From contig JAUNQQ010000013.1 of the NCBI GenBank assembly GCA_030536095.1, positions 2,820 to 16,698 of the forward strand: a DNA stretch of 13,879 nt, read 5' to 3'. The notes beneath the pieces were generated by a model. That model was given only the letters and a program-made list of their open reading frames with translations, did not search any database and was not told the origin of the DNA. The translations under genes were made by a program, and so were the position numbers. How positions within the stretch are numbered: position 1 is the first letter of the stretch; each line of letters opens with the position of its first letter. Shown here piece by piece: positions 1,356-13,482 of this stretch. The DNA is from Candidatus Saccharimonadota bacterium. Lineage in GTDB: Bacteria; Patescibacteriota; Saccharimonadia; Saccharimonadales; Saccharimonadaceae.

Positions 1356-1384
1356 TTGTGTTTAACCGGCATTTCCTGTATAAT
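1356..1384 (+). promoter_or_regulatory. Promoter of the FISUMP-domain gene
   Basis: TTGTGT (1356-1361), a 17-bp spacer and a perfect TATAAT (1379-1384) form a sigma70-type promoter. The upstream in-frame ATG at 1356 lies inside the -35 box, so it cannot be the translation start. The ATG at 1419, preceded by TTAGGGAAACGG, is the sensible one. Confidence 0.75.
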
Positions 1385-1418
1385 AAAACCAGAGAAAGGT
1401 CATATTAGGGAAACGGTA

Positions 1419-3071
1419 ATGAGCGAACGATTTCTAAGTTTCGGCAAATATCTAATAAAAATCACCATTGTTTATTTTGGTGTGGTTTTTGGACTTCTCC
1501 TCATGCCTGGATTTTTCACAGGTACAATCTGCGCAGACGAAGAAATCGACCCAACTTTACGCCCTTCTGCCGAAGCCACTATGGCCGTCGCTATTCGTCG
1601 CAATGTCGAAAATTATCTCCCTTCTGATAACGCTACAATGTGGATTGAGACAGATAACGCTCGTGGTTTAACTACTACAGTCAGCGGCCACAATATTGAC
1701 AATCTAATTAAAATTAAAGATGGTAAAGGCGATTTTTCTATCGGCGACCTCAGTTATAAAACCGGCGCCGACACATTAGTTTTTACTACTATCGCTAATT
1801 TTGCTGCTCAGACTAAGACAATTTTTGACATCGAATATATGCAGGAAATGACCTCAGCTATCTGTGACGCTACTCCGACGCCGCTTGCCGAAATAGACGG
1901 CGCTCTAAACACTGAAATTCCCGAAACTACTCTGATTGATTCGCGTGACGGCAAAAAATATATCATTAGAAAACTTGCCGACGGCCACTGCTGGATGGCT
2001 GAGAATCTCGCTCTTGATCTATCTAGTGAAAAAACTTATACTTCACTTGATACCGATATTGCCCCGAGCTATAACCAGGAAAAACAAGATGCCCTTATTC
2101 GTAACATAAAAAACGCCGATGATTATCTAGTTCGTGTCGCCGAAACGGTCGAGGGTGGCGTTCCAAAAACAATAAAAAAACCTACTCCTACTCCTACCCC
2201 CACTACTGACCCAGAAGAACCTTCCGAAGAAAATCCCGAATCTGATTTAGTCGAATCTGCCCCGTCAACCGTCGATGGTATTATCGAAAATGCTATCACC
2301 TCTAGTGAGGTTGCGCCCAATACAGAACTCCCAGAATTTGAAACTGCTCCCGAGCCGCAACAGTCCAATGGTCTCGCCGAAGCCATCTCTAAGATTGAAG
2401 CCGAAGCTCGCGCTCGCGCTGATGAAGCACGTGCTGCAGAGCAGGCCGTTCGCGCCGCCGAACAAGAGCGCGCCGCTGAAATTGAGAAAAAAGCCGCCGG
2501 CTTAACTAATGAAAGTACCTCAAAAATCGCCAGGGAACTAAACATCAGTCTTCCAGAATATGTCGGCTTCACTCCTGAAAACAGTACTCAGGAACTCGCT
2601 GGTGAACGCTGGCGCGGTGACTCTGTTTCTCAGATTGAAAATGACATTGCCCATTCCCAAAAAGCCACTAATCCCGCTCATGGTAATTATTATAACTGGT
2701 ATTCCGCAACTGCTGGAACTGGCACCTACTATATGGAAGACGCCAAAGCCGGCTCCAGTATCTGTCCAAAGGGCTGGGAACTCCCCGCTGGTGACGGTGC
2801 TAAGAGCTTTGTAAATCTCATTTCTCTCTATAAATTCAATGCCGATACTACTGATTATACTCTCCGCGACTACCTAATTTCCGCCCCACTTTCTCTCTCC
2901 CTCGCTGGCGCTTATTATTACAACGGCCTCATCGGTGGTGAAAACGAATGGGGAAATTACTGGACAAAAGATGCCGAAAATCTCGTCGCCGCCAGCTTTG
3001 ATGTCGAAACCGTCGGTATGAATTACAGTCAAAAAACCAACGGTTACTCCATCCGCTGCGTTGAAAAATAA
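1419..3071 (+). CDS. Secreted FISUMP-domain protein with a coiled-coil insertion
   Basis: This is a 550-residue exported protein of unknown function. A basic N-terminus and a hydrophobic segment (about 13-34) end in TICADEE, a plausible signal peptide with cleavage near residue 39. The FISUMP (Fibrobacter succinogenes major paralogous) fold is recognisable in two pieces. The first is about residues 167-245, with LIDSRDGKKYIIRKLADGHC then WMAENL. The second is about 420-550, with YYNWYSATAGTG, SSICPKGWELP and a final NGYSIRCVEK. Between them lies an unusual insertion: a PTPTPTPTT linker (255-263), an acidic Ser/Pro-rich stretch and an Ala/Glu/Arg coiled coil (about 318-360). It probably sits on the cell surface. 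The start was chosen from the promoter, since the longer frame to 1356 would begin inside the -35 box. The family is well supported; the biological role is unknown. Confidence 0.85.
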   Translation: MSERFLSFGKYLIKITIVYFGVVFGLLLMPGFFTGTICADEEIDPTLRPSAEATMAVAIRRNVENYLPSDNATMWIETDNARGLTTTVSGHNIDNLIKIKDGKGDFSIGDLSYKTGADTLVFTTIANFAAQTKTIFDIEYMQEMTSAICDATPTPLAEIDGALNTEIPETTLIDSRDGKKYIIRKLADGHCWMAENLALDLSSEKTYTSLDTDIAPSYNQEKQDALIRNIKNADDYLVRVAETVEGGVPKTIKKPTPTPTPTTDPEEPSEENPESDLVESAPSTVDGIIENAITSSEVAPNTELPEFETAPEPQQSNGLAEAISKIEAEARARADEARAAEQAVRAAEQERAAEIEKKAAGLTNESTSKIARELNISLPEYVGFTPENSTQELAGERWRGDSVSQIENDIAHSQKATNPAHGNYYNWYSATAGTGTYYMEDAKAGSSICPKGWELPAGDGAKSFVNLISLYKFNADTTDYTLRDYLISAPLSLSLAGAYYYNGLIGGENEWGNYWTKDAENLVAASFDVETVGMNYSQKTNGYSIRCVEK

Positions 3072-4781: not shown

Positions 4782-7532
4782 TTAATTCCCAGGCGTCACC
4801 ACCGGCGTCGCCGTCGGTGTTGGCGTCGGCTTCTTTTGTGCTCCTCCCGAATACGCCGAAATCTCCGACGCCGACAACTCATCCGTCGCCTCATACCCCA
4901 GCTCGTCCTTCACAATCAGCTGGATTGATTCCTCGGTTCCTGTCGGCTTATATCCTAGACTAACCGAATTTCCACTTACTGCCCCACTTGCCACCGTCAC
5001 TCCATTCACCGCCAACGAATACCCCGTAATATTTCTCGATCCCTTTGAGATAATTGCCTTTAATCCAGACGTTCCATCCGAAACGATATTCACCGTCGGC
5101 GTTTTATATGAACAGTCGTCCTCTTTATCTCTGTTATATCCATCCGGCACAGTCCAAACTTCCTTATTCGTAATCGGATCCAACATCTTTGTCGCATCAA
5201 TCGTAATCTTCTGATCTGCCGGAGTACACTCACTCGCCAACATCTTCGTGTATTTATTAAACGTTAGCTTTACTACTGCCATTCCAGAATTTCTAGCATT
5301 ATACCACGACGGCCAAATATCCCCATTCGCAATCGTAATCCCTTCCGGTCGCACTGGTTCCTGATTCTTCGTCCATCTCCCCGCCGGTTCATACAGATTT
5401 AGATGTACATCACTCATATAATTATTTATTACTCTCCGCACTAAGTCATTCGAAGAATTCCACAGTGCCGACCCGTCATGATTCCCATTCCATACTACCG
5501 TCGAAACCACCGGCGAATAAGAAATCATCAACGAATCTTTTGTCTGGCTACTATTTGCCGTCGTCGTTGTTCCCGTCTTACTGGCTGTCCAAACATTCGG
5601 CACCTTAAATCCATACGATGTCGCCATACTTCCAAAGACCAAATTCCGCGCCGCCGCATCACCTAAGATATTCGAAACCATATATGCCACCTGCTCATCA
5701 TAAACTCTCGTCCCCTCCGAATCCTGCCATGACTCAATCACCTCACCCGCCGAGTTTTTTAGCTCAAGTATATAAGCAATATCTTTATATGTTCCACCTC
5801 GCGAAATAGACGCATAAGTATTGGCGTGTTCCACTAATCGAATATTACATCCCGACCCAATTGCAATCGAAAGTCCGCCTGCCGACCCCGCATCAGCACA
5901 ATACGATTTCTCCCCTAAATTATGCGCCACCTCTAGTGAATTCTCAATTCCATTTATATATAACGCCTTCACCGCCGGAATATTTAGGGAATTTGCCAGC
6001 GCTTTCCGAATTGTCACATTCCCATAAAACGCCCCAGTATAATTTCGCAGTTTACACGACCCCGTATATCCCGCACAATAAATTGCATCAATATTTTCAT
6101 CCTTCAAAATTGTTCCCGGCGCATAATTTTGTCCTGTTCTCTGCATCATCAACGGCCCGTAATCCAAAACCGGCTTAATTGTCGACCCCGGCTCCAATAA
6201 TGCTGTCGCCGCATTTACCTCGCCATATCCTGGTACATTCCAATCCACCGACCCAACCATTGCAATTACTTGCGATGTTTCAACATCCACCGAAGCCATC
6301 GCGATATTATCGCTCCCGTTCAGATTTCGCATTTCCGCCCCCGCCGCCACCGCCGCTTCTGCCATTTTCTGCGCATTATAATCCAGCGTCGTCTTAATCA
6401 TGTATCCACCCGACCGCATCGTCTTCACCCCATACTTATCCTCAAGATAATCCTTGACAGCCAAGACAAAATGTGGCGCCTTAATATTCTCATACTGATC
6501 CACCTCCGGCTTAATCGTATCTAGAACCGCTATACTTTTTGCTTCGTCCGCCTGCTCCTGTGTAATATATTCCATCTCCACCATCGAATTAAGCACCTTA
6601 TGCTGTCGCTCAATCAGCGCCTGATTTGCCTCTATATTATAAGGATTCAGCACCGCCGGATTATTCGGAATCGCCGCAAGTAATGCCGACTCCGCTAATG
6701 TTAAATCTTTCGCCGACTTACCAAAATACGTCTGCGCCGCCGACTCAACTCCGTTCCTTCGCCCACCATACGGACTCTCGTTCAGATACATCGTAATCAG
6801 TTCTTCCTTATCGTACATCTTCTCAATTTCCAACGATAAAATTGCCTCCTTAATCTTTCGCGGGATACCTGTCACTGTCCGGTCTTTTGACTCGTCCGAA
6901 AAATACACCTGCTTTATTAGCTGCTGTGTCAGAGTCGAACCACCCTGAACACCTTTTCCAGCCACCGTAAAAATTGCCGCCCTTATTGTCGCCCAGAGAT
7001 CAACTCCCATATGATTATAGAAATTTTTATCCTCAATCGCCACTGTTGCTTGTCGCATATAAGTTGAAATCTGATCACCCTCAACCACAAGTCGATAATC
7101 TCCATCCCCCTTATCTTCCCACAATACTTCTCCATTTCTGTCAAGATAAGTATTCACCGTATCCGCAACCTGCAAATCCTCCAACTTAATCGCATCCAAA
7201 TCCTTCTTGTAATACAAGAATAAACCACCAATCGCAATAATCGCCAACAGAAACAACGCTAGTCCACACTTTAAGAAGAACTTCACTCCGCGCATCGAAA
7301 AAATAAACCTAAACACCCGCTTCGGATGTAGTCTTGCAAAAAATCGCTTTACCGGATTTTTTGGTAAATCAGCCAAATCATCCGCTCGCTTTCGCGCTTT
7401 TTTATCTGCCTTTACTTTTGATTTATAAACCAACGACGAATAAGTATCCATCGACCTATTCGAGGAACTGCGTTTTTTTCGCTTCGGCGCCTTCTTTGGC
7501 ACCTCTTTATCTTTCGAATTAGATTTCACCAT
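4782..7532 (-). CDS. Class A penicillin-binding protein (PBP1A-like)
   Basis: This 916-residue bifunctional peptidoglycan synthase polymerises glycan strands and cross-links stem peptides outside the membrane. A long basic cytoplasmic tail (1-80, many K/R) precedes one transmembrane helix (about 84-107). The GT51 glycosyltransferase domain (about 130-310) shows the catalytic motif EDKNFYNHMG (E167) and GGSTLTQQLIKQ (197-208). The transpeptidase domain has the nucleophile motif STIK (S450/K453), SLN (515-517) and KTG (652-654), so both activities look intact. After about residue 770 comes an extension resembling an Ig/FN3-like domain and a PTPTPTATPVVTPGN tail. The gene follows tyrS by 9 bp with its own extended -10 promoter at the tyrS stop codon. 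The assignment to class A PBP is firm; which paralogue is not. Confidence 0.95.
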   Translation of the reverse strand: MVKSNSKDKEVPKKAPKRKKRSSSNRSMDTYSSLVYKSKVKADKKARKRADDLADLPKNPVKRFFARLHPKRVFRFIFSMRGVKFFLKCGLALFLLAIIAIGGLFLYYKKDLDAIKLEDLQVADTVNTYLDRNGEVLWEDKGDGDYRLVVEGDQISTYMRQATVAIEDKNFYNHMGVDLWATIRAAIFTVAGKGVQGGSTLTQQLIKQVYFSDESKDRTVTGIPRKIKEAILSLEIEKMYDKEELITMYLNESPYGGRRNGVESAAQTYFGKSAKDLTLAESALLAAIPNNPAVLNPYNIEANQALIERQHKVLNSMVEMEYITQEQADEAKSIAVLDTIKPEVDQYENIKAPHFVLAVKDYLEDKYGVKTMRSGGYMIKTTLDYNAQKMAEAAVAAGAEMRNLNGSDNIAMASVDVETSQVIAMVGSVDWNVPGYGEVNAATALLEPGSTIKPVLDYGPLMMQRTGQNYAPGTILKDENIDAIYCAGYTGSCKLRNYTGAFYGNVTIRKALANSLNIPAVKALYINGIENSLEVAHNLGEKSYCADAGSAGGLSIAIGSGCNIRLVEHANTYASISRGGTYKDIAYILELKNSAGEVIESWQDSEGTRVYDEQVAYMVSNILGDAAARNLVFGSMATSYGFKVPNVWTASKTGTTTTANSSQTKDSLMISYSPVVSTVVWNGNHDGSALWNSSNDLVRRVINNYMSDVHLNLYEPAGRWTKNQEPVRPEGITIANGDIWPSWYNARNSGMAVVKLTFNKYTKMLASECTPADQKITIDATKMLDPITNKEVWTVPDGYNRDKEDDCSYKTPTVNIVSDGTSGLKAIISKGSRNITGYSLAVNGVTVASGAVSGNSVSLGYKPTGTEESIQLIVKDELGYEATDELSASEISAYSGGAQKKPTPTPTATPVVTPGN

Positions 7533-7540
7533 ACTACATT

Positions 7541-7549
7541 ATTATACCA
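7541..7549 (-). promoter_or_regulatory. PBP promoter overlapping the tyrS stop codon
   Basis: On the minus strand TGGTATAAT (extended -10, TATAAT at 7541-7546) lies 8 nt before the PBP ATG. Its TAA is the tyrS stop codon, so the promoter is embedded in the 3' end of tyrS. This allows the PBP to be expressed on its own as well as by read-through. There is no convincing -35 and no Shine-Dalgarno site. Confidence 0.65.
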
Positions 7550-8762
7550 CAACCGCAAATTTATTTTTACCTTTTTTCAAAATTCCCGTTTTTTTTAGCA
7601 CAGCATTTTCATCTGTAATTTTTTCATTATTCAGCGAAACCGCCTTCCCCTTAATAAATTTTCTCGCCTCAGATTTACTTTTTGCCAGCCCAGTTTTCAC
7701 CAATCCCTCCAAAATATTTTCCGACTTTTCCACATTTGGCAATAACTTTTTCGCAACGTCAATATCTATATCATTTTTCTCTCGCGAAAACAACTGCTCC
7801 GTCAATAAAATCACCTCGTCTGTCAACTCTTTTCCATGAACTACCTCTGTTACTCCACGCGCTAACATCTTCTGTGCCACCCGCGCTTCCGGTGCTTTTT
7901 TCTGTTCCACCATTACGCTTTCAATCTCATCCGGCTCATAAGTCGTATAAATTTTTAGCAAGTTTTCCACCGCCTCGTCCGCCTGATTAATCCAGAACTG
8001 ATAAAAATCGAACATCGATGTAAAATTCCCGCCACCATTATCACTTCCCGCTAGCCACACTGCGTTCCCCTCCGATTTTCCAAATTTCTTTCCAGAAACC
8101 GGGTCAATCACGAGTGGCGTTGACCAAACATTCGCCTCCGCATTTTCCATTCGCCTAATTAGATGAATCCCCGAAGAAGCATTTCCGTATTGATCCGCCC
8201 CACAAATTTGCAAATCCACACCATATTTTCGATAAAGATGCAAGAAGTCATACCCTTGTATCAGCGTATAAGAAAACTCCGCGTACGAAATCCCCGCTCC
8301 ACCTTCTCCAATCCGATTTTGGACAAATTGCCGATCGAGCAACTGTGTCATTGAAAAACTTTTTCCTACCTCGCGCAAGAAATCCAGATATTTTATCTCT
8401 CGAAACCAGTCATAATTATCCACAATTGTCAAATCGTCCGCCTTGACAATTCGCCTAAACTGTTCTGTAATACATTCCTTGTTATGTGAAACTTCCTCCA
8501 AACTTTTTAGTTCTCGCTCTGAATTTTCCTTCGGGTCGCCAATCTGTCCCGTTGCTCCACCCACCAAAAGATACGGTTTATATCCGTGCCGAATAAAACA
8601 CGCCGCCATCATTAGTGCCGCCAAATTCCCAATTGTCAGCGAATCCGCCGACGGGTCCGCCCCTAGATAAAAACTGTGCTTTTTTGCGTCCAAATCTTCA
8701 ATATTCTTCACTGTCGTCTCCGCGACAAATCCCCGATACTTTAATTCCTCTGATAATTTCAT
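7542..8762 (-). CDS. tyrS: Tyrosyl-tRNA synthetase
   Basis: This is a 406-residue class I aminoacyl-tRNA synthetase charging tRNA-Tyr. The Rossmann catalytic domain shows FYLGADPSADSLTIGNL (31-47), where the HIGH-equivalent signature is TIGN, so both histidine positions are replaced. Other conserved motifs are GGATGQIGDP (68-77), the tyrosine-binding YTLIQGYDFLHL (165-176), GADQYGN (188-194) and the KMSKS-equivalent KFGKS (226-230). A C-terminal S4-type RNA-binding domain covers about 348-406 (GLAKSKSEARKFIKGKAVSL). Length and domain order are normal for the bacterial TyrRS. The ATG is only 6 nt from TATAAT, so the mRNA is probably leaderless. The PBP gene follows 9 bp downstream on the same strand. 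Confidence 0.97.
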   Translation of the reverse strand: MKLSEELKYRGFVAETTVKNIEDLDAKKHSFYLGADPSADSLTIGNLAALMMAACFIRHGYKPYLLVGGATGQIGDPKENSERELKSLEEVSHNKECITEQFRRIVKADDLTIVDNYDWFREIKYLDFLREVGKSFSMTQLLDRQFVQNRIGEGGAGISYAEFSYTLIQGYDFLHLYRKYGVDLQICGADQYGNASSGIHLIRRMENAEANVWSTPLVIDPVSGKKFGKSEGNAVWLAGSDNGGGNFTSMFDFYQFWINQADEAVENLLKIYTTYEPDEIESVMVEQKKAPEARVAQKMLARGVTEVVHGKELTDEVILLTEQLFSREKNDIDIDVAKKLLPNVEKSENILEGLVKTGLAKSKSEARKFIKGKAVSLNNEKITDENAVLKKTGILKKGKNKFAVVV

Positions 8763-9013: not shown

Positions 9014-11611
9014 ATGAATCATAAATCATATCCACCACACCACGAAGACTATGGTAATAATTCGGATGATGCCTACCGTAAATGGCAAGATGCTATGCGG
9101 GATGTCGATTTTCAAGGGGGTGGAAGTTCATTTCAAAAAAAACCGGATAAAACAAAAACTTTTCTTGGCAAAATTCAAGGACTTAGGGGGTTAATAAAAA
9201 GAAAATTTAGTATTTCAAGCAGTGAACAATCAGTAGAAAAGACGGACGATACGCCAGCTCAAGAAAAGTGGAATCTAACAAAGGTAAGTAGGCAGCTAGG
9301 CTCGAACGAAGGTGGGTGGTATGAAAATCCTGACGGTGAACGTTATTATGTAAAGTTTTATAAAAATCCGAATCAAGGGCGAGCGGAGTTCGTAGCTAAT
9401 GCGATTTACGAGAAGGCAGGAATTAAGGCGGTACGGTCCGAGATGATTCAACTTGATGGACGTGAAGCGATTGCGTCTCCAGTGATACCTGGCGCCACGG
9501 CAGCCAGTAAGGAGGCTCAAAAAGCTAGTGAAGATGTTCAAAAGGGGTTTGTTGCGGATGCGTTTTTAGCAAACTGGGATGTAGTTGGTTTAGCATTCGA
9601 CAATATAGTCCAGAGTGATGACGGTTTTTATCGGATTGACAATGGCGGCTCCCTTATTTTTCGCGCACAGGGTGGCGATAAGACCTATTCTCCTGATTCG
9701 ATTCCGGAACTTAATTCCATGTTGGCGAATGGTCGTCCAGCCGGGGAAATATTTGCGGGTATAACAGAAAAAGAAATTAGAAGACAGGCACAAGATTTAG
9801 TTAGTAAAGTAAAACCAGAAGACATAAGAACAATCGTGGACGAATCTGGACTTACGGGGGAAGATCGCGACAGGATTTTGGCTGGTCTGCTGGGGCGACG
9901 TGAATATTTGGCGAAGACATATGGAAAATCAATATCAACCGCAGGGGAATCAGTGAGTTCAGAAAAAGAGATTAATCTAGGGGCTGAAGCGCGTAGGCCA
10001 AGGAGAAGTATGAGCGAAGCAATTAGATTAGTCAGCAATCAAGAAATGGAGCAATCTAGAGAGAGACTAGTGCGGCCTAAGACAGAAATTGTGTGTGACC
10101 ACGGACATATCGAGGGACAGAGGATTGATGTTATTGATAAAAGGGACAAGGGCGTGGTGGAATTCAAGTTTAAGCTAAGAGAGCCGACCGAAAAAATAAG
10201 GAAAATGATAACGGAGTTTAATAGCTCTGCCGACCAGCCAGAAGTCGTCACTTCTAGTGGCGTAATCATGAAAAAGGGCCAAATTACCTATGAATCGACA
10301 TCGGGTCCGCTGGATGATTATTCTGCACAAGTTTTATGTGATGCGTTCATTTTTGAGAAAAATGGAGTGGAAGTCGCCATTGCGGATTATCGAAATCGAC
10401 ATGGTGTAACTAAAGATAGTATTGTCCATCAGAATTCTGGGGCCGTAAGGTCGGCTATGGGACTAGTTAAAATAGATATTTCGGCAGATATGGACCCTGA
10501 AAAAATGGAGAATACTTTAGCAGAAATACTAGGAAAAGACCTAGGTATTCCAGATGCGTTGGGTGAAGTTCCAAAAGAAGCAGAAAGAGAATATAAAGTA
10601 TCTCGTTATAAATGGCAACATGCGATTAGGGGAGAATTATCGCCAGAACAGAAAAAACAAGCTGAGAGACTAGAGCGAGAAGAGGTATTTCCTGGATATA
10701 CGACTTTCATAGAGAAGGGTAAGCACGAAGAATATCTTAGCAGATACGGTAAAGATATACGTGCATTTCATTCGCTATATTCCGGAGACACTGAATCTAT
10801 TCATCGAGTATTGACTCAGGGATTGATGTCTACGACCGAACGATATTCTAGGGGGTTCTTGAAAAAAGGATTATCGTCCACCACTGATATTGACATGGGC
10901 GGCGCAGATAGTGTATTTACTAGAGTTGGAAATAAAATGGCTAGAATGCGTACTGATGACGGTTCTTTAGTGATACTTAAGCCAGAAATATTTGATCGGA
11001 CGGATTGGTATTCCTATAGTATGGATAGATATGGCTCAACCGAAGATAACGTCTTTGATGTGCGACTTTCGCCTGATGCCCTTTTTGACTATGTAACTGA
11101 TCCTATAAGCGGCTCCTGTTCTGCTGGTAACGAGCAGATGTTTAGAACAGGAATTGGCGCCAACTATATTGAGTCAATAGAAGTCAGTAATGACTCGCGC
11201 GACAAAATTATAGCCGAACTACGTTCTATGGGATTGAAAGAAGTGGACGGGAGGCCAATTGAGGAGGTTATTACATCACGCAAAACCTTATCGGAAGAAT
11301 CGGATGTTCAAAAAGCTATTGATGATCTTTTTGCTGACCTTTTCGCTGAGTCTCCTGAGTCTGATGAGGCTAGCTCAGCCCCAATTTCGCCTAATAAATC
11401 TAATCATGCTACTTATGAGCAGTTGGGGATTATCCCTAAATTCAACGTTGGAGATGCAGTCTTTAGTGATTTTGGTTTTTCTGGCATAGGAACAATTGTC
11501 GGCATAGATCCAAAACCATCAGCGGAAGGAAAGGCAATGTACCATGTTCTAACAGATGAAGGCGAAGAAAAAACAATAATAGAATCCTTGCTAAGAAAAC
11601 ATTGGCCTTAA
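9014..11611 (+). CDS. Kinase-like / putative ADP-ribosyltransferase-like fusion protein
   Basis: This is an 865-residue multidomain protein that I do not recognise as a named gene. Residues about 85-300 resemble the HipA/PI3K-like kinase fold: a glycine-rich loop LGSNEGG (95-101), YYVKFY with K114, ADAFLANWDVVGLAFDN (181-197) as catalytic loop, and RIDNGGS (207-213) as the metal-binding DFG equivalent. Residues 355-560 are unassigned. Residues about 583-745 resemble an ADP-ribosyltransferase of the H...E type: AFHSLYSGDTESI (H586), LTQGLMSTTER, GLSSTTDIDMGGADSVFTR, and NEQMFRTGIGANYIESIEV (E707). Residues 805-865 look like a small SH3/KOW-like barrel (VGDAVFSDFG). No signal peptide or membrane segment is seen. 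AGGAGG lies 10 nt before the ATG. Arg codons AGA/AGG are common and the strand is purine-rich, unlike neighbouring core genes, suggesting acquisition. The CDS is firm; the domain calls are inference. Confidence 0.75.
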   Translation: MNHKSYPPHHEDYGNNSDDAYRKWQDAMRDVDFQGGGSSFQKKPDKTKTFLGKIQGLRGLIKRKFSISSSEQSVEKTDDTPAQEKWNLTKVSRQLGSNEGGWYENPDGERYYVKFYKNPNQGRAEFVANAIYEKAGIKAVRSEMIQLDGREAIASPVIPGATAASKEAQKASEDVQKGFVADAFLANWDVVGLAFDNIVQSDDGFYRIDNGGSLIFRAQGGDKTYSPDSIPELNSMLANGRPAGEIFAGITEKEIRRQAQDLVSKVKPEDIRTIVDESGLTGEDRDRILAGLLGRREYLAKTYGKSISTAGESVSSEKEINLGAEARRPRRSMSEAIRLVSNQEMEQSRERLVRPKTEIVCDHGHIEGQRIDVIDKRDKGVVEFKFKLREPTEKIRKMITEFNSSADQPEVVTSSGVIMKKGQITYESTSGPLDDYSAQVLCDAFIFEKNGVEVAIADYRNRHGVTKDSIVHQNSGAVRSAMGLVKIDISADMDPEKMENTLAEILGKDLGIPDALGEVPKEAEREYKVSRYKWQHAIRGELSPEQKKQAERLEREEVFPGYTTFIEKGKHEEYLSRYGKDIRAFHSLYSGDTESIHRVLTQGLMSTTERYSRGFLKKGLSSTTDIDMGGADSVFTRVGNKMARMRTDDGSLVILKPEIFDRTDWYSYSMDRYGSTEDNVFDVRLSPDALFDYVTDPISGSCSAGNEQMFRTGIGANYIESIEVSNDSRDKIIAELRSMGLKEVDGRPIEEVITSRKTLSEESDVQKAIDDLFADLFAESPESDEASSAPISPNKSNHATYEQLGIIPKFNVGDAVFSDFGFSGIGTIVGIDPKPSAEGKAMYHVLTDEGEEKTIIESLLRKHWP

Positions 11612-11633
11612 AGCCTTGATTTTACCCCCCCGA

Positions 11634-11684: not shown

Positions 11685-12125
11685 ATGGAACCATCCAAAA
11701 AACCAACGGCGCAATCATCTAGTGTAGGGGCTAACATAAATAATGGAATAGGTGATGCTGAAAAGGGAAAAACTACAGAAAAAATACCAAAGCCAGTCTA
11801 TTATATTGAATCGCCTGACGACGATACGGTGTTGATTGGGATTAATGTAGCTATAAATCATAATAAAGCGGGTGAAAATGATATTTATATAGTAAGATGG
11901 TATGATACAGTCCGTGAGCGCATTATGATAGCATCAGAAATAAGGAAAAATGATGATTATTTTGCATTCAAGCGGCTAGAGCAGGAGGGTGGCGGATTTT
12001 ACTATTTTATGCCAATGAATCTTGAGATTTATAATAATAAGGTTAAACAACGACTGGCGATCCAGAAAGATTTTACGAATGAAAATGACCTAATAAATGC
12101 ATTTTTATCTTCGATCGAAGACTAA
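11685..12125 (+). CDS. Hypothetical 146-aa protein paired with the kinase/ART-like protein
   Basis: This 146-residue protein has no family I recognise. Residues 1-38 are low-complexity, polar and probably disordered. The remainder (about 40-146) looks like one compact alpha/beta domain rich in Tyr, Ile and acidic residues, with no signal peptide, membrane segment or catalytic motif. The ATG at 11685 was chosen because AGGAG stands 6 nt upstream; the longer frame from a TTG at 11616 would run through the promoter. It begins 73 bases after the 865-residue protein gene and shares its A-rich coding. Size and position would fit a partner, antitoxin or immunity protein, but that is inference only. 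A hairpin overlapping its stop codon probably ends the unit. Confidence 0.75.
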   Translation: MEPSKKPTAQSSSVGANINNGIGDAEKGKTTEKIPKPVYYIESPDDDTVLIGINVAINHNKAGENDIYIVRWYDTVRERIMIASEIRKNDDYFAFKRLEQEGGGFYYFMPMNLEIYNNKVKQRLAIQKDFTNENDLINAFLSSIED

Positions 12126-12220: not shown

Positions 12221-12988
12221 ATGAATTTATCATCCCGTCAGCGCGCAATTCTTTTTGCCGTAATCGAAGAATATTCTGAGACTGCAACCCCAGTTGGCAG
12301 CATTATGCTCTCAAAATTATTCCAGGTTTCCTCGGCAACTATTCGCTCTGAAATGGGCTATCTAGAAAGTCTTGGCCTACTTGAACAGCCGCATACTTCC
12401 GCCGGCCGTATTCCGACTGATAGTGGTTATCGTTTTTATGTTAATACTCTAGCCGAAAATATCGAGTCGCATGGTAACGCTTTTGCCCCGCATCTTCTCG
12501 AGAATAAAAGTCTAAATCGCAATACTCGTGTTATGGAAATCCGCGCTAACTCTCGCGAAAATGCTGACCAGGTCATAAAATCCGTCGTTGAAACCCTCGT
12601 TGACTTAACAGGGAATCTTGGTCTTGCTACAATTGGCGACCAACTTTATCTTCGTGGAATTTCCCGCCTTTTTTCCCAGCCCGAATTTTCCGATAATTCT
12701 CACGTTCGCTCCGTTGCGAAGCTTCTTGATAATCTTGAGCCGTGGCTCCGAGAAGTTTCCCCTGGTGAGCCGCTCAATATCTTTATTGGTCAGGAAAATC
12801 CTATCGGTAAAAATTCCGGCGTCGCGCTAATTGTAGCAAAGTTTCGCTCGCCCTATTCCGATAAAAGTTATGTTGGAATTCTCGGTCCGACTCGTCAGAA
12901 TTACGGAAAGACCATGGCGCTCGTAAAATACGCCGGCGAAATTTTAGAAACCGTTTTAATTGATAATAATGAGAAAGGATATTTATGA
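12221..12988 (+). CDS. hrcA: Heat-inducible transcription repressor HrcA
   Basis: This is a 255-residue HrcA, the repressor of chaperone genes that binds CIRCE operators. The N-terminal winged-helix domain is canonical (SSRQRAILFAVIEEY, then VSSATIRSEMGYLESLGLL and HTSAGRIPTDSGYRFYV, residues 4-74). The C-terminal part ends with VGILGPTRQNYGKTMALVKY. At 255 residues it is clearly shorter than the roughly 340 residues of typical HrcA; the missing part maps to the middle or dimerisation/insert region, with both ends kept. It ends in TGA, and ATGA overlaps the grpE start by 4 bp, so translation is coupled. A CIRCE-like site at its own promoter suggests autoregulation. Confidence 0.93.
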   Translation: MNLSSRQRAILFAVIEEYSETATPVGSIMLSKLFQVSSATIRSEMGYLESLGLLEQPHTSAGRIPTDSGYRFYVNTLAENIESHGNAFAPHLLENKSLNRNTRVMEIRANSRENADQVIKSVVETLVDLTGNLGLATIGDQLYLRGISRLFSQPEFSDNSHVRSVAKLLDNLEPWLREVSPGEPLNIFIGQENPIGKNSGVALIVAKFRSPYSDKSYVGILGPTRQNYGKTMALVKYAGEILETVLIDNNEKGYL

Positions 12989-13482
12989 AAAACCCTCTAA
13001 AAACCCCCGATGAAACTAAGTCGCCTAAAGAAACTCCGTCCACAGAAAAACCATCTCTCGACGCCACCGAGCTTCTTAATACGCTCCAAAAAACCCGCGC
13101 CGATTTCGAGAATTTTCGTAAACAAGTCGAAAAACAGCGCGCCACTGCCATAAGAATTGCCGAAGAATCCACTGCGACAAGATTGCTCCCACTTCTCGAC
13201 GATATTGACCGCGCAATTTCTGCCAATCCAGAGCTTCAGCCCCTCCAAAAGTCCCTCGAAAAAACCCTAAAGGAACTTAAGCTCGAAAAAGTCTCCGCTG
13301 AGGTGGGTGTCGATTTTAATCCTGATCTTCACGAAGCTGTTATGGTCGAAGGCGATGGCGAAGTTGAAACAATCGCTGAAGTATTGCGCAATGGCTATGC
13401 TTATCACGGCGAAATTATTCGCCCTGCCATGGTAAAAGTCCAAAAATCCTCCCCCGAAGCACCAAAACCTCCAAAAGCCTAA
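12985..13482 (+). CDS. grpE: GrpE nucleotide exchange factor
   Basis: This 165-residue GrpE releases ADP from DnaK in the Hsp70 cycle. Residues 1-27 are a polar, Pro/Lys-rich tail. A long helix (about 28-105) with TRADFENFRKQVEKQR and LLPLLDDIDRAI forms the dimer stalk, followed by the beta domain with VGVDFNPDLHEAVM (108-120) and the closing GYAYHGEIIRPAMVKV (137-152). It overlaps hrcA by 4 bp and AAAGGA lies just before its ATG. dnaK and dnaJ, its usual neighbours, do not follow directly; tsaB does. The protein looks complete. Confidence 0.95.
   Translation: MKNPLKTPDETKSPKETPSTEKPSLDATELLNTLQKTRADFENFRKQVEKQRATAIRIAEESTATRLLPLLDDIDRAISANPELQPLQKSLEKTLKELKLEKVSAEVGVDFNPDLHEAVMVEGDGEVETIAEVLRNGYAYHGEIIRPAMVKVQKSSPEAPKPPKA

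Follow-up and report, generated by a model that had tools for sequence, protein, structure and literature searches.

Polymorphic toxins of temperate phages carrying the phage head domain MuF are described in PMC5576092 as phage-distributed proteins with C-terminal enzymatic modules, including ADP-ribosyltransferases (ARTs), usually followed by a small open reading frame (ORF) of <150 amino acids (aa), and MuF head proteins are proposed there to enter the host along with the DNA. The polyvalent proteins that phages and conjugative elements encode similarly bear several enzyme domains per chain, kinases and ARTs among them (PMC5512222). The window analysed here, a 13,879 nucleotide stretch from a Candidatus Saccharimonadota bacterium of the Candidate Phyla Radiation (CPR), contains an operon that invites comparison with both: an effector gene, whose product combines a kinase related to CtkA and HipA with an ART-like domain resembling the DarT enzyme of DarTG systems, and a small downstream partner gene. 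We lean towards reading this pair as a mobile operon shared with phages, encoding a two-enzyme effector of MuF-toxin type, without a MuF domain, together with its cognate immunity protein; a toxin cassette with immunity is the best reading because the kinase, the ART-like domain and the small downstream ORF recur in three genetic formats. The features, with model confidence as the predicted local distance difference test (pLDDT), are as follows.

9014..11611, plus strand: effector gene, 865 aa, encoding kinase, middle and ART-like domains (ORF call, at least 256 database relatives, structure model).
9275..9922, plus strand: HipA/CtkA-like kinase domain, residues 88-303 (K114, E125, D182, N187-D189, N197, R207, D209, G211, G212, R217).
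10031..10549, plus strand: middle domain, residues ~340-512, mixed alpha/beta, of no named family (pLDDT mostly >90).
10691..11284, plus strand: DarT-like ADP-ribosyltransferase-like domain, residues ~560-757 (H586, R610, G629, D664, E707).
11351..11608, plus strand: C-terminal tail, residues 780-865, predicted disordered and not conserved (pLDDT <50; alignment).
11685..12125, plus strand: partner gene, 146 aa, likely immunity or antitoxin (homologues at the equivalent site in CPR and viral loci; structure model).

An earlier note on this DNA had reported the 865-residue ORF at exactly these coordinates, and the motifs it listed are all present where it placed them (K114, NWD at 187-189, DN at 196-197, RIDNGG at 207-212, H586, GLMSTTER, GGADSVFTR, NEQMF with E707, and IESIEV). 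They are far from chance occurrences, because the family comprises at least 256 proteins at E <= 0.01 among the 7994 candidates scored, the window copy counted in. The closest homologous records bear the name Candidatus Saccharibacteria, in agreement with the CPR origin that the note had proposed, and the 752 kb size of the own genome likewise agrees. An alignment of 73 sequences, drawn from the best 120 of these at least 256 homologues, contains three conserved blocks (residues ~88-303, 340-512 and 520-757) and is variable at the N-terminus and beyond ~760; the structure model, of mean pLDDT 79.5, exceeds 90 across most of the three domains. The effector matched nothing in Pfam or NCBIfam at E <= 1 or among PDB sequences at E <= 10, and a single PHROGs entry at E 0.3; no above-cut-off model was found for effector or partner in Pfam, PHROGs or PADLOC, nor for the effector in NCBIfam.

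The kinase domain has CtkA as its top match both by profile and by structure, sharing the kinase fold with the CtkA/HipA group at ~16% identity in structural alignment, whereas the architecture of the effector is fused. Within the family alignment D209 is present in 73/73 sequences, K114 in 71/73 (two gaps) and N187, W188 and D189 in 72/73 each (one gap apiece). Across a broader set of 24 kinases, taken from CPR and phages as well as from Legionella and other bacteria, K114, E125, D182, N187, D189, R207, D209, G211, G212 and R217 are invariant, with N197 in 21 and D196 in 16. The domain combines the fold with what we take to be the ATP-binding lysine, the catalytic aspartate and the metal-binding asparagine and aspartate, and its catalytic loop is presumably longer than that of HipA; the HipA-like kinase predicted earlier is supported. 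By contrast, the polyvalent-protein kinases form, according to PMC5512222, a group that has lost the C-terminal subdomain and is found mainly in phages and prophages of Verrucomicrobia-Chlamydia and Bacteroidetes. The same kinase domain is also found with a NUDIX domain in three proteins of Legionella longbeachae and other bacteria (L013, 9326-15391; L014, 9833-13792; L016, 9320-11545), the first two also containing ankyrin repeats.

For the second enzyme there is moderate support for an ART-like identity, DarT being the solved fold closest to it. H586 and E707 are each conserved in 73/73 family members, the pair after which the earlier note had called its ART-like domain H...E-type. In a wider alignment of 26 ART-like domains from CPR, phage and plasmid proteins, R610, G614, G619, S621, D625, G629, F635, R637, R662, D664, D671, G674, E707 and G746 are invariant and H586 is present in 21; given this difference from E707 and R610, 'H...E' is not the full signature. 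The DarT set used for comparison held 14 rows from 16 loci (L112 and L122 being the same gene, and L119 and L121 lost at threshold). Local hhalign placed E707 on the DarT Glu column at a probability of 34%; H586 met the DarT His column solely in global mode, which was discarded as unreliable after 4/100 shuffles scored equal or higher. The DarT family PF14487 had no match at E <= 1 in the window effector, which falls short of the Pfam gathering score, and none in nine effector homologues, where other families alone matched, below cut-off; it was likewise absent from all 239 phylum genomes searched, own genome included. The domain, fused to a kinase and below all sequence thresholds for DarT, differs too from the polyvalent-protein ARTs, which PMC5512222 describes as H-Y-D type.

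Between the two enzymes, the middle domain aligns with the corresponding region of phage MuF proteins (local hhalign, 97.4%). No such claim is made for plasmid proteins, as the region preceding their ART-like domain scored 0.2%. A small C-terminal barrel, proposed previously for residues 805-865, was rejected: it falls within the unconserved stretch 780-865, modelled at pLDDT below 50.

It is the partner gene, unreported by the earlier note, that shapes the interpretation most. The 146 aa product begins at an ATG at 11685, with an in-frame TTG at 11616 that would extend it to 169 aa. A small ORF of this kind directly downstream, as in MuF toxins, is found in the window and, as a partner homologue at the equivalent site, in 7/7 CPR loci with downstream DNA, spanning four CPR lineages; the intergenic distance is -14 to +20 bp in six CPR loci and, counted from the ATG, +73 bp in the window. 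Among 25 related viral-contig genes, 10 are followed by a partner homologue with the first profile and 21 after iteration (~14 distinct sequences, that of L055 lying ~560 bp away); none was found in L048 or L059, while the contigs of L069 and L070 stop at this point. At iteration 2 the effector genes of L061, L062 and L069 also gave internal matches, which had vanished by iteration 3. Homology with the small ORFs of plasmids is not claimed (hhalign 0.1%). The partner model, at pLDDT 85, is predicted to form a PH-like barrel with two helices, and its structural matches resemble PH-like barrels; none of the 50 VIA matches listed is a macrodomain, though one may lie beyond them. As the partner is not recognisably a macrodomain and the effector falls short of the Pfam threshold for DarT, membership of DarTG is not claimed. 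In a Saccharibacteria draft record (L006, 423-3564) the effector frame is broken within the ART-like part and the partner is intact.

The partner is likely an immunity protein or antitoxin. Were it instead a chaperone or adaptor by which a virion or a secretion machine is loaded with the effector, its retention in CPR genomes without a MuF protein (PF04233 matched in 0/7 of those with the operon) would be unexpected, as would its survival beside the broken effector of L006, which immunity predicts, albeit from one draft record; we regard this role as decidedly improbable.

Kinship with phages, suggested by the earlier note, is evident from several sources. Nine proteins were examined from the 29 loci returned by an IMG/VR scan with the kinase: MuF is present in six and ART-superfamily Pfam families match six at E <= 0.01 (three over cut-off), both together in L018, L021, L024 and L038, and neither in L017. 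Scanning again, now with the ART-like domain, gave 25 loci. Their proteins measure 819-1760 aa, several being truncated where the contig stops, and carry this domain at the C-terminus or close to it. These relatives are themselves MuF proteins, all eight of those scanned matching PF04233 at E <= 0.01 (six over cut-off). The kinase profile hidden Markov model (HMM) alone detects only L059 among the 25, and pooling 11 of the proteins gave an hhalign probability of 95.4% (P 1.9e-8) against the kinase profile, with the kinase motif visible in 7/11; L058 and L063 show no such motif. Two ART-domain queries found no match among INPHARED phages. Among the best BFVD structural matches of the whole effector model, not assigned to any one domain, are Gordonia phage proteins, a portal protein of HK97 type and two entries named as ADP-ribosyltransferases. 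One phage MuF-ART-like protein (L050, 5322-8624) contains an intein, with HNH endonuclease matches, right behind its MuF domain.

Plasmids provide a further format. The ART-like domain was found on 19 plasmid records, 18 from Streptomyces and one from Mycolicibacterium; in the four inspected, a kinase-motif protein (797-890 aa) upstream, an ART-like protein and a small ORF (146-153 aa) are clustered, with one additional ORF between the first two in L105. The kinase HMM alone matched only the L105 upstream protein, and three upstream proteins pooled reached 93% (P 3.4e-7) against the kinase profile. On the Streptomyces plasmids L104 (2673-7582), L106 (2634-7528) and L123 (1715-6594) the kinase and ART-like proteins have near-identical N-termini (MGTGSKSSH.SYAV), a sequence likeness that points to a common signal for targeting or packaging, and an ADP-ribosylglycohydrolase gene lies ~4-6 kb beyond them.

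The modules recur as MuF fusions in phages, clustered genes on actinobacterial plasmids and a direct fusion in CPR. A bolder proposal, to which we give rather little credence, is that kinase and ART constitute one obligatory two-step machine, assembled or retained in all three formats and aimed by the CPR epibionts at host or rival bacteria; for instance, the kinase might create or activate a site for the ART, or act on its ADP-ribose product. Both recurrent companions of the kinase, the ART here and NUDIX elsewhere, are linked to NAD/ADP-ribose chemistry.

Within CPR, occurrence of the effector is patchy: it was found only in its own genome, of 752 kb, among 60 relatives and among 379 phylum genomes (own included in both). 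The flanking genes in the window are housekeeping ones (tyrS, a penicillin-binding protein (PBP) gene, hrcA and grpE), the effector lying between tyrS and hrcA with no phage gene among the scanned neighbours. At L002, a goat-ileum record, the operon sits amid phage-family genes, with phrog_37857 and phrog_6813 on the left and ERF, a resolvase-like protein, methyltransferases and a terminase on the right. Like polyvalent proteins, the effector has more than one enzyme-like domain on its chain, two in all; phage flanks are seen at L002, not in the window. The L002 flanks, and the MuF- and Alt-like relatives, would suit a phage or prophage moron active in infection, through host take-over or superinfection exclusion, that persists in CPR chromosomes as a relic or passenger; this is unlikely, as nearly all 73 aligned homologues are open and full-length with intact active-site residues, and the window copy has no phage gene among its scanned neighbours.

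The main competing explanation, also on the unlikely side, is an anti-phage, abortive-infection toxin-antitoxin comparable to DarTG, in which the partner would hold the effector inside the cell until infection freed it. The CPR protein has no recognised delivery domain, and the likeness to DarT, the tight spacing of the two genes and the patchy occurrence all fit such a system. It is opposed by the absence of a PADLOC match to effector or partner at E <= 1 (weak matches, E 0.0016 to 0.028, being restricted to L010), by a partner modelled as a PH-like barrel in which a macrodomain is not evident, and by the phage relatives, in which these domains belong to head proteins, in keeping with delivery.

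Two further observations concern the rest of the window. A PBP homologue lies 3' of grpE, in the short flank compared, in 5/29 relative loci, whereas in the window (4782-8762, 12221-13482) PBP-tyrS is on the minus strand, on the opposite side of hrcA, and the operon sits at the junction, which may reflect a rearrangement. A 571-aa ORF at 1356-3071 has a hydrophobic stretch close to its N-terminus and a Glu/Ala-rich segment, and its product may be secreted.

The CPR effector, without a MuF domain, is not itself a MuF toxin, and it carries a kinase, a word absent from the main text of PMC5576092; it nevertheless probably works like a MuF toxin. The chemistry of its ART-like domain, its toxicity, delivery, neutralisation and targets we infer as follows. 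The conserved middle domain joins the two enzymes; with NAD+ as substrate, the ART domain would ADP-ribosylate a macromolecule inside the target cell, perhaps DNA, by its resemblance to DarT, otherwise protein, and the kinase would phosphorylate a second target or the ART's own. The producer would be protected by binding of the partner to the ART-bearing part. Related modules form the ends of MuF head proteins in phages, and CPR bacteria and actinobacterial plasmids have the cassette, the former in a version without a recognised MuF domain. Of the effector, toxin or phage- or mobile-element-derived factor envisaged by the earlier note, the phage and mobile kinship is upheld and the interpretation as a whole partly so.

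Among the papers listed by literature searches, none concerned the CPR effector-partner pair. If the interpretation is correct, it would bring in a two-enzyme effector along with a new candidate family of immunity proteins, would link CPR genomes to toxins delivered by phage heads, and would offer a candidate means by which ultrasmall epibionts may combat phages, rivals or hosts.
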